Notes under the pieces: model-generated
Seen by the model: the letters and a program-made list of their open reading frames with translations, nothing else
What the model was told of the DNA's origin: nothing
Databases searched by the model: none
In this document: piece by piece, positions 12,203 to 14,010 of the stretch
Layout: every line of letters starts with the position of its first letter
Numbering within the stretch: position 1 is the first letter of the stretch
Translations under genes and position numbers: made by a program
Source: Chryseolinea sp. H1M3-3
GTDB taxonomy: Bacteria > Bacteroidota > Bacteroidia > Cytophagales > Cyclobacteriaceae
Assembly (NCBI RefSeq): GCF_029360725.1
Contig: NZ_JARKMY010000002.1
Span: 186,001 to 250,000 of the forward strand
DNA: 64,000 nt
Direction of reading: 5' to 3'

Positions 12203-13042
12203 ATGAAATATATATTTACGCTCATTGCTTACGCCATTGTACTAACCTGCAACGCGCAACATCACAAGTACCACCATCAAAAAAAATACGACTTTAGCAA
12301 CGTAGATCCTGCCACTATTGATAAGGAAGAACTTAATAAAAAAGTGGAAAATGCCAGAGTCAGTTCAGGGTATGATTCGTTGAAGGCGCTTGAGCATTAT
12401 GTCCAAACAACGGACGAAAATCAGTTTGCTACGCTAGCCATAGGCTATCAACACGCCTTTGCATCGTTTGACAATCTTCGGCGGGAACTTAGTCCCCTTG
12501 GATTCAACAACATTAAGGAAGACATGAGCAATTTCGTGGTCTCGCTCGATTTGTATAAAAATCGTTTTATGATGTCCTATATTTTTACGCCCGGTTTCAG
12601 AAATCTTTCATCAAATGAAAACTATGAATTGAGGACCCGTAGGCGAGCATTCGAGGCAGGGATTGGTTATGACCTCATCGGAAACAAACATATCGACCTC
12701 TTCCCACAGGTATCGATCGGTTTTCAGGATTTTAACCTGCGTGTCGAGCAAAAAAATATAAATGTTACCGACATACCGGGCCTGTTAGACGAAATGGTGA
12801 ACACATCGATGAGGAAAAGAGCTTTCATATTCACGTATGGAGGTGAATTCGATTACAAGTTTTATACGAAAGATCGTGGTCGCATTATTTTGGGTGTGCG
12901 CTATGCGCAAGTAGTAGAACCTGGTGACGGTCGCGTGAGAGTTAATGGAAAAAAATCTGACTTGAAGGTCGACGACACTATCGCTACCTCAACGATGTCG
13001 GTCGTGATCAAAATGGTTCCCGGCGGTCGTCATGTCAGGTGA
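12203..13042 (+). CDS. putative outer-membrane beta-barrel protein
   Basis: This is a 279-residue exported protein of unknown function. A signal peptide covers about residues 1-18 (hydrophobic core IFTLIAYAIVL, cleavage near NAQ). A His-rich segment HHKYHHQKK follows at about 20-28 and could bind metal, but it is short. From residue 75 onward the sequence alternates amphipathic strands rich in Tyr, Phe and Arg, such as ATLAIGYQHAFASFD, FEAGIGYDLIG, PQVSIGFQDFNLRV and IILGVRYAQVV. This is the pattern of an outer-membrane barrel of roughly 8-12 strands. No family name was recognised. It is alone in the gene-poor stretch, so its role is open. Confidence 0.7.
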   Translation: MKYIFTLIAYAIVLTCNAQHHKYHHQKKYDFSNVDPATIDKEELNKKVENARVSSGYDSLKALEHYVQTTDENQFATLAIGYQHAFASFDNLRRELSPLGFNNIKEDMSNFVVSLDLYKNRFMMSYIFTPGFRNLSSNENYELRTRRRAFEAGIGYDLIGNKHIDLFPQVSIGFQDFNLRVEQKNINVTDIPGLLDEMVNTSMRKRAFIFTYGGEFDYKFYTKDRGRIILGVRYAQVVEPGDGRVRVNGKKSDLKVDDTIATSTMSVVIKMVPGGRHVR

Positions 13043-13568
13043 GTCGCTTAATTTGCTGCGTCAAAAATTTAATTTTGAAACACCTTGTTGAAAGCCTCGG
13101 GTATGGAGAAAGGTTAGAGGGCGGACAGTGTTTCATGCATCAAGAATCGGTGGATCTGTTCGGTAGATTCGGTATTTCTTCGGAAAAAAGCCCTTTTAGC
13201 GCAGGTTTACCGAAGGCTGAACGAGCCTTAACCGAAGGCCAAGGCTCGGAACACGCTAGAATGTCGATCCGGTGTCCCGATACGAAAAAACCTTTACACT
13301 TTGAGATAATCCGGCGCTGGCTTTACTGAGTAGAGCGTTGGTCCGGCTGCGGCTATACAAATTGATAGGTTAATGGAGATGTATTTTTTAAATCATGAAA
13401 AATTGATTGTTGTTGTCGATGTTGGAATGTGGTAACTCGCGGTGGAAGTACAACAGTTTGTGCAACACTTTCCGCGGAGTTACCTAAAAACTTTCCGATT
13501 GTTCTGCAAAAGAATTGACGCTGAAGCAGGGGTACAAAGTGGATGGCTTGTAATGGCCAGATAATAAG
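13043..13568. other. non-coding stretch with hairpins
   Basis: There is no supported gene. An 8-bp stem (CGAGCCTT with AAGGCTCG) spans 13222-13248 downstream of the barrel-protein gene. A longer imperfect hairpin spans 13431-13484, with outer arms GGTAACTC and GAGTTACC and an inner GCGG/CCGC after a one-base bulge. A half-site GTCCCGATA at 13274-13282 resembles the palindromes of the adjacent tRNA-like repeats. Confidence 0.5.
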
Positions 13569-13683
13569 TACCAAAGGAGGGTCGCGATAGCTATCGTGAC
13601 GAACCCTCACATCCGAAGATACACGATTTTGTCCCGATAACTATCAGGACGTGCGCTAACTATTAATGACGAGAGTCTTTGGT
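13569..13683 (-). pseudogene. tRNA-Leu-like pseudocopy 1 with two inserted palindromes
   Basis: Read on the minus strand this 115-nt unit keeps the acceptor stem (ACCAAAG with CTTTGGT), the 3' half of the anticodon stem, the variable arm and the T-stem of the intact tRNA-Leu at 13929-14010. Relative to that tRNA, GAATC (plus-strand view, T-loop) is replaced by the 20-mer GTCGCGATAGCTATCGTGAC at 13581-13600. GAGTC (anticodon loop) is replaced by the 20-mer GTCCCGATAACTATCAGGAC at 13631-13650. The D-arm part is unrelated. The anticodon is destroyed, so it cannot act as a normal tRNA. Confidence 0.85.
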
Positions 13684-13928
13684 GCAGTCAACCAATATTG
13701 ATATTAACATATTAACGGCTAACGATAGTCAAAACTCCTCGCTTAAAGTACCAAAGGAGGGTCACGATAGCTATCGTGACGAACCCTCACATCCGAAGAT
13801 ACACGATTTTGTCCCGATAACTGTCGGGACGTGCGCTAACTATTTATGACGAGGGTCTTTGGTGCGGTCAACAAGTATTGATATTAACATATTAACGGCT
13901 AACGATAGTCAAAACTCCTCGCTTAAAG
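13684..13928. repeat. 180-bp tandem repeat flanks
   Basis: The same 65-bp spacer, ending in CTCCTCGCTTAAAG, occurs at 13684-13748 and 13864-13928. The array is therefore pseudocopy 1, spacer, pseudocopy 2, spacer, intact tRNA-Leu, with a strict 180-bp period measured at the shared CCAAAGGAGG (13571, 13751, 13931). The spacer copies differ at about three bases near their left ends. Confidence 0.9.
13749..13863 (-). pseudogene. tRNA-Leu-like pseudocopy 2 with two inserted palindromes
   Basis: This second unit lies exactly 180 bp from the first and differs from it at only a handful of positions. The T-loop insert at 13761-13780 is the perfect palindrome GTCACGATAGCTATCGTGAC. The anticodon-loop insert at 13811-13830 is GTCCCGATAACTGTCGGGAC, with 7-bp arms. 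The acceptor arms still pair perfectly (ACCAAAG/CTTTGGT). Some differences between the two units improve pairing in this copy, for example in the second palindrome. Confidence 0.85.
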
Positions 13929-14010
13929 TACCAAAGGAGGGAATCGAACCCTCACATCCGAAGATACACGATTTTGAGTCGTGCGCGTCTACCAGTTCCG
14001 CCACTTTGGC
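13929..14010 (-). tRNA. tRNA-Leu (anticodon CAA)
   Basis: This is an 82-nt class II tRNA. The acceptor stem is GCCAAAG with CTTTGGT (one G-U pair) and discriminator A. The D-loop contains GGTAGAC. The anticodon stem CACGA/TCGTG holds a loop with CAA. The long variable arm GTATCTTCGGAT is typical of leucine tRNA, and the T-arm has TTCGATT between GAGGG and CCCTC. It reads UUG codons. CCA is not encoded. Its 3' end faces the repeat array and the gene-poor stretch. Confidence 0.96.

Follow-up and report, generated by a model that had tools for sequence, protein, structure and literature searches.

In type III toxin-antitoxin systems (ToxIN-like), short structured RNA repeats with a terminator lie beside a nuclease gene, and the repeat RNA neutralises a toxic endoribonuclease. 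A nuclease gene next to tRNA genes is known from the T-even phages, where the GIY-YIG homing endonuclease SegB drives tandem amplification of tRNA and nuclease (PMC13096335). With respect to short dispersed palindromes, the Rickettsia palindromic elements (RPE) measure 105-146 bp and also occur in frame within protein genes (PMC2229807), while the GTAG/CGTC-tagged REPs are short dispersed hairpins with compensatory stems and RAYT transposases (PMC3733652). The locus analysed here contains an intact tRNA gene with two disabled copies, and relates to a module of Bacteroidia in which tRNA genes and a homing-type nuclease are combined with a hairpin standing in for tRNA loops. No description of this GIY-YIG/tRNA/hairpin module was found in the open-licence papers searched, including searches for the text GATAGCTATC, for palindromes with RNase P or tRNA, and for GIY-YIG with tRNA.

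The tRNA-Leu(CAA) array

The window (i.e. the whole stretch of 64,000 nucleotides that was analysed) comes from a 6.88 Mb genome of the genus Chryseolinea (Cyclobacteriaceae). An earlier sequence-only reading had noted an intact tRNA-Leu(CAA) gene and two tRNA-like copies at a 180-nt period, which was confirmed by ARAGORN, Rfam and repeat comparison (Table 1). The disabled copies are located downstream of the intact gene in the tRNA sense, the 180-nt units starting at 13566 and 13746 are 96% identical to each other, and a 32-nt core is identical in all three tRNA-Leu units (13600-13631, 13780-13811 and 13945-13976). The search sequence CGATAGCTATCG, with at most one mismatch, has two matches in the window against 0.08 expected.

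Table 1. Features of the tRNA-Leu(CAA) array and its surroundings (positions in the window)
Feature	Position	Strand	Remarks
Neighbouring ORF, 279 aa, end MVPGGRHVR	12203..13042	+	synteny anchor to G004 contig 273 (displaced copy and GIY-YIG ORF there)
Disabled tRNA-Leu copy A (distal)	13569..13684	-	within 180-nt repeat, 96% identical to copy B
T-loop palindrome of copy A, TCGCGATAGCTATCGTGA	13582..13599		
Anticodon-loop palindrome of copy A, TCCCGATAACTATCAGGA	13632..13649		
Spacer between copies B and A	13685..13748		repeat of the 13865..13927 spacer
Disabled tRNA-Leu copy B (proximal)	13749..13864	-	hairpins in anticodon loop and T-loop; D-arm replaced; acceptor/T-stem pairs retained
T-loop palindrome of copy B, TCACGATAGCTATCGTGA	13762..13779		in place of AAT (plus strand), tRNA positions 58-60
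Anticodon-loop palindrome of copy B, TCCCGATAACTGTCGGGA	13812..13829		in place of AGT (plus strand; ACT in tRNA sense)
Spacer, intact tRNA to copy B	13865..13927		relatives: terminator and GIY-YIG ORF at this place
tRNA-Leu(CAA), intact gene	13928..14010	-	ARAGORN; Rfam RF00005, 57.8 bits
Neighbouring ORF, 97 aa	14143..14436	-	synteny anchor to G004 contig 224 (intact tRNA-Leu there)

The inserts had been described as 20-mer (near) palindromes; they are indeed palindromic, but the actual palindromes are 18-mers within those 20-mers. Each 18-bp palindrome takes the place of precisely three nucleotides, which on the plus strand of the intact gene are AAT (13942-13944) and AGT (13977-13979), so that in the tRNA sense both copies have exchanged ACT (positions 31-33) and ATT (positions 58-60) for a palindrome. 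Pairing of the acceptor and T-stem, which had also been noted, is retained, but not that of the D-arm, which in both copies is unrelated sequence; each copy retains the acceptor 3' strand, the T-stem, the variable arm and one strand of the anticodon stem. Neither ARAGORN nor Rfam detects a cloverleaf in the disabled copies, the intact Leu(CAA) being the sole tRNA called in the window, and the predicted RNA fold consists of stacked hairpins (z = -3.5 and -5.1 relative to shuffles).

Since the copies differ mutually, and since an orthologous copy exists in the related genome G004 and a like arrangement in the single-contig genome G001, an assembly artefact seems an unlikely source of the array.

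The dispersed palindrome and its hosts

Allowing three mismatches, the 18-mer has 29 and 32 hits on the two strands of its own genome, compared to 5 and 2 for the reversed control. The window palindrome is thus one of about 30 in this genome, with a conserved core and covarying arms, and further copies are found in relatives. Most of the own-genome sites fall within broken, supernumerary copies of structured RNA genes, located beside the intact gene, the genes concerned being tRNA-Leu(TAA) (twice), Ser, Thr, Leu(TAG) and 5S rRNA (three times), while an Ile-like tRNA copy has palindromes in both its D-loop and T-loop. Several of the context tallies were made by eye from sequence, among them the 10 out of 17 independent loci that fall in broken RNA-gene copies, for which the chance is ~1e-21 with a generous target of 20 kb. 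In the relatives, the palindromes are likewise found mostly in broken RNA-gene copies. The idea that tRNA loops are exchanged non-randomly for a dispersed palindrome is well founded.

In a sample of the phylum, the exact 18-mer was found in 31 of 396 genomes, nearly all of the same class, at no more than 36 per strand and with zero control hits. When the 84,980 species genomes of GTDB were all scanned for the T-loop plus core, leaving the outer three arm positions free, 86 matches were obtained; at least 7 of the 9 positions are paired in 81 of these, nearly all of which are labelled Bacteroidota, and matches from other phyla fall among the low-pairing ones. The T-loop palindrome pattern is not present in viral contigs and the GIY-YIG queries (see below) have no match in phage and plasmid collections, on which grounds an origin from phages or plasmids was discarded. 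A role as intrinsic terminator was dismissed as well, a hairpin followed by a T-run occurring at only 1 of 88 non-redundant palindrome sites.

The palindrome also occurs within full-length RNase P RNA in G024 and G006, where it forms helix tips (loci L116 3764-4153 and L154 3748-4161), G006 having two, of which one is nested. Because the surrounding RNA is full-length, the palindrome seems to be tolerated in an RNA that presumably works.

Several other arrays were encountered. Partial tandem 5S rRNA copies with palindromes lie beside an intact 5S gene in several Chryseolinea genomes (L026 7500-8200, L157, L138, L131). In Mucilaginibacter hurinus (L178 7050-7680), seven tandem units of ~95 bp comprise the tRNA-Leu(TAA) 3' end and a terminator, each with a T-loop palindrome, and GIY-YIG is absent. 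Three tandem tRNA-like units in G000 contig 6 (L027 6180-6800) have T-arm-like and hairpin parts and no ARAGORN or Rfam match; one of them has a palindrome where a sister unit has AATT. Tandem repeats of ~213 bp (L034 5500-6450, L035, L029) have two palindromes each around a TTTTACATT...AAATGTAAA inverted repeat, one site being empty in L029, and G022 (L079-L098) holds around 20 copies of an intergenic repeat with CCCCGATAGCTATCGGGG, in place of which a sister form has ATTAT. In G000, divergent and partly degenerate tRNAs (Met, Pro, Gln, His, Arg, Ser and others) also lie together at C1:1552500-1554640 and C1:1548440-1548680, much as in a tRNA array of the phage type. Hairpin arrays of this kind confuse tRNA annotation: one hairpin-bearing copy is miscalled as tRNA-Gly by ARAGORN.

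A GIY-YIG nuclease module in Bacteroidia

At T-loop palindrome loci, a small ORF was seen that ends right before the displaced tRNA. It encodes a GIY-YIG protein (Pfam match to PF01541), is found near 21 loci fetched by the T-loop palindrome alone, in every case on the strand of the tRNA, and is the ORF family present in most genomes among the palindrome-fetched loci. To remove selection bias, a second set of loci was fetched by GIY-YIG protein search alone. This nuclease type, for which no description was found in the open-licence papers searched, is present in 121 of 395 Bacteroidia genomes, i.e. about one third of those sampled. The order of the module is: intact tRNA, terminator, GIY-YIG ORF (same strand), partial copy of that same tRNA, and again a terminator; the unit of ORF, copy and terminator frequently occurs in tandem.

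An intact tRNA lies at most 400 nt upstream on the same strand for 38 of 70 GIY-YIG ORFs, many of those without a nearby upstream tRNA being later members of tandem arrays or located at contig ends. A displaced 3' tRNA copy follows the stop codon in 41 of the 70, as counted with a simple detector that misses tandem-array copies when the fetched stretch holds no intact tRNA. In 36 of these 41 copies (which are partly non-independent, tandem units of one locus being counted separately) there is a hairpin of at least 6 bp, compared to 6% of shuffled controls, and the other 5 have no qualifying hairpin. The intact gene is 5' of 3'-type copies in 54 of 56 pairings.

Nearly every module copy has at least one loop or arm exchanged for a short hairpin, the stem of which is typically (T)CCCGA/TCGGG(A). 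The palindrome GATAGCTATC is the commonest, besides which other cores occur, i.e. CCGAAGCTTCGG (tRNA-Phe T-loops), TCCCGATGCATCGGGA (Ala anticodon arms) and TCCCGAGTACTCGGGA (Asp), and one Asn copy has a hairpin stem of 16 bp. The earlier phrase 'family of engineered-looking tRNA-like RNAs' describes this pattern well. In 81 GIY-YIG ORFs, the residues Y, Y, G, R, H and E are conserved at 96-99%, which is consistent with an active nuclease.

Tandem units are found at L281 (7 copies), L290, L294, L308, L310, L323 and L020. At L281 (G261 C1:541800-544319), seven GIY-YIG units with a hairpin-bearing tRNA-Phe copy, of ~381 bp each, are nearly identical, suggesting recent amplification.

The window itself has no GIY-YIG ORF in the spacer at 13865..13927. 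G004 (C273, L239) shares a neighbour gene and synteny with the window; there, a GIY-YIG ORF directly adjoins a displaced tRNA-Leu that has hairpins in both the T-loop and the anticodon loop. G001 and Pseudochryseolinea flava have an intact tRNA-Leu(CAA), GIY-YIG and hairpin-bearing copies, G003 has a decayed tRNA-Leu copy with D and anticodon palindromes, and in G002, where palindromes are almost absent, tRNA-Leu is a single clean gene. Because a close relative retains the GIY-YIG gene beside the orthologous copy, the window array is, judging from these comparisons, best read as a relic of the nuclease module, in which GIY-YIG would have been lost and the copy duplicated locally.

Origin of the hairpin-bearing copies and likeness to known systems

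The module may be a SegB-like, tRNA-linked homing and amplification unit, with a hairpin disabling the tRNA copy that is left over, a reading to which we assign a probability of roughly 0.45. By analogy with SegB of phages T4/T6, the GIY-YIG protein would be a homing endonuclease of the free-standing kind and cleave tRNA genes, after which recombinational repair would spread and amplify the unit and leave extra tRNA pieces behind. A hairpin, perhaps drawn from the family of short dispersed palindromes, would render the leftover piece useless both as tRNA and as target for cutting or recombination, and the unit would thereby be harmless and stable. In its favour are the module layout regained at loci fetched by GIY-YIG alone, with a hairpin in most displaced copies, the conserved catalytic residues, the sister loci and the precedent of SegB. 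Several observations count against it. Since the module keeps its intact tRNA, a nuclease cutting within the gene would cut its own locus, unless it requires a longer site or is expressed at a low level. The position of the hairpin varies (D, anticodon, variable, T and occasionally acceptor), even within one tRNA (Asn), and is therefore not predicted by a fixed cut site. The persisting intact tRNA and the varying positions together form the main weakness of the SegB-like reading. Moreover, palindromes are found where GIY-YIG is lacking (5S copies, RNase P RNA, intergenic repeats), five of the 41 displaced copies have no qualifying hairpin, and the co-occurrence per genome is weak (GIY-YIG in 11/19 palindrome-rich versus 6/21 palindrome-free genomes, p = 0.11), where 'palindrome-free' means without the exact 18-mer and some such genomes hold variants (e.g. 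G121). More speculatively, and rather doubtfully, the module could represent a new class of selfish element, i.e. a tRNA-parasitic nuclease unit that rides on the tRNA transcript and actively adds a hairpin to every leftover copy, thereby blocking its cutting, processing and use. If so, the hairpin would be a recognised and installed sequence rather than a neutral insert.

Chief among the rival readings is a mobile palindrome that is independent of the nuclease and builds up in expendable copies: a selfish element of RPE/REP type, moved by a transposase in trans, would prefer ANT-like sites in hairpin loops and survive in expendable tRNA and 5S copies, with GIY-YIG merely making those copies. 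Empty-site comparisons, in which 3 nt is the commonest length replaced, fit this in that ANT accounts for 11 of the 13 3-nt events that were listed separately (outside the T-loop scan), and the insertions outside tRNA copies fit it too, i.e. those in RNase P RNA helix tips, in 5S copies and at intergenic sites (ATT, replaced in L035 relative to the empty L029). It also fits that the sequences flanking the palindrome form stems more than re-paired flanks do (2.41 versus 1.89, sd 0.10); the excess is modest, and general insertion into flanking hairpins was rejected on that ground. In a comparison of 40 genomes, strong Y1 transposases were found in 19/19 palindrome-rich versus 8/21 palindrome-free genomes (p = 2e-5), yet the palindrome flanks none of the 31 Y1 loci in palindrome-rich genomes, and these genomes have no Y1 clade of their own, so that membership of the REP/RAYT (REPtron) systems is unsupported. 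Genomes without the exact palindrome carry the other-core hairpins mentioned above, and a hairpin in so large a share of the displaced copies is overly regular for neutral hits, which makes such an element unlikely, though less so than the remaining candidates. Much narrower is the proposal of the sequence-only reading, a minute mobile palindrome with a preference for GANTC targets. Both window sites do lie in a GANTC of the intact gene, and conserved T-loops generally read GANTC, since G-A-N-Y-C (positions 57-61) is conserved in tRNAs. As a rule it fails: empty-site comparisons contradict GANTC in general, the pentamer being absent at the Thr (C[AGT]G, the replaced piece in brackets), Leu(TAA) (GG[ACT]TA), 5S and intergenic sites. 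Most sites outside the T-loop lack the flanking G/C (also C[AAT]C, AC[ATT]GG and GG[AAT]GG), elsewhere GTT or 4-8 nt were lost (including 7-8-nt pieces, e.g. GCTCAGC and CGCCAGCG), and tRNAs with a T-loop reading ANC are struck too (5/44 versus a background of 8/83). A GANTC transposon is too narrow an explanation also because most copies are 3' of a GIY-YIG ORF and hairpins with other cores play an equal part; it is very improbable.

It is also conceivable, if improbable, that the hairpin-bearing tRNA pieces are functional RNAs in which the hairpins are selected, either as 3' shields of the GIY-YIG message or as decoys or antidotes for the nuclease or for tRNA enzymes. Such a function would agree with the location of the copies after the GIY-YIG stop codon with a terminator at the end, with the predicted fold of the window copies being far better than that of shuffles, and with the covariation of the arms. 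In a set of 30 different T-loop variants, Watson-Crick pairs make up 63 of the 90 outer pairs, compared to 43 (sd 3.3) with shuffled arms, and at one and the same tRNA-Leu(CAA) T-loop site four relatives have four differing arms that are always paired (TCAC/GTGA, ACCC/GGGT, TCCC/GGGA and CCCC/GGGG). Covariation points either to selection on the hairpin or to a copy made from a folded strand, however, and could thus arise at insertion. In addition, the retained part varies widely (T-arm only, anticodon to 3' end, or 5' D-arm pieces), many copies are decayed and several arrays are without any GIY-YIG. Finally, a restored tRNA followed by displaced 3' fragments, with breakpoints in loops, is the classic signature of integration, and the copies could accordingly be attR/attL remnants of integrase-borne elements that use T-loops or anticodon loops. 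Yet no integrase family recurs among the ORFs at palindrome loci, the inserted unit is short with GIY-YIG as its only gene, and the 5' fragments that precede some tRNAs (Ala, Ser, Lys, Val) are at odds with this reading; integrase attachment sites were rejected on the first of these grounds, and hardly any weight is left to them.

Compared with the described systems, the module resembles type III toxin-antitoxin loci in having a nuclease gene adjoined by short structured RNA repeats with a terminator, whereas its nuclease is of the GIY-YIG type and its RNA pieces are tRNA-derived and mostly 3' of the ORF; we know of no toxicity for the GIY-YIG module. With REP/RAYT it shares short dispersed hairpins with compensatory stems, and Y1 transposases in all palindrome-rich genomes tested, but there is no constant tag (GTAG at 0/88 and CGTC at 13/88 non-redundant palindrome sites). 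RPEs are likewise dispersed palindromes tolerated in structured RNA genes, including RNase P RNA, whereas the Bacteroidia palindrome is 16-20 bp, occurs mainly in tRNA and 5S copies and replaces a short target. Whatever their origin, the covarying palindromes offer a clean system for studying how very short hairpins move. SegB of T4/T6 has in common with the module the GIY-YIG domain, a tRNA-adjacent gene and the tandem amplification of tRNA plus nuclease segments; the Bacteroidia module differs in being chromosomal, with one tRNA per unit, a repeated tRNA piece that is truncated and hairpin-bearing, and a cutting activity that is putative. If the proposed mechanism holds, the module would be a cellular counterpart of the phage SegB amplification, and a selfish element that disarms its own leftovers.
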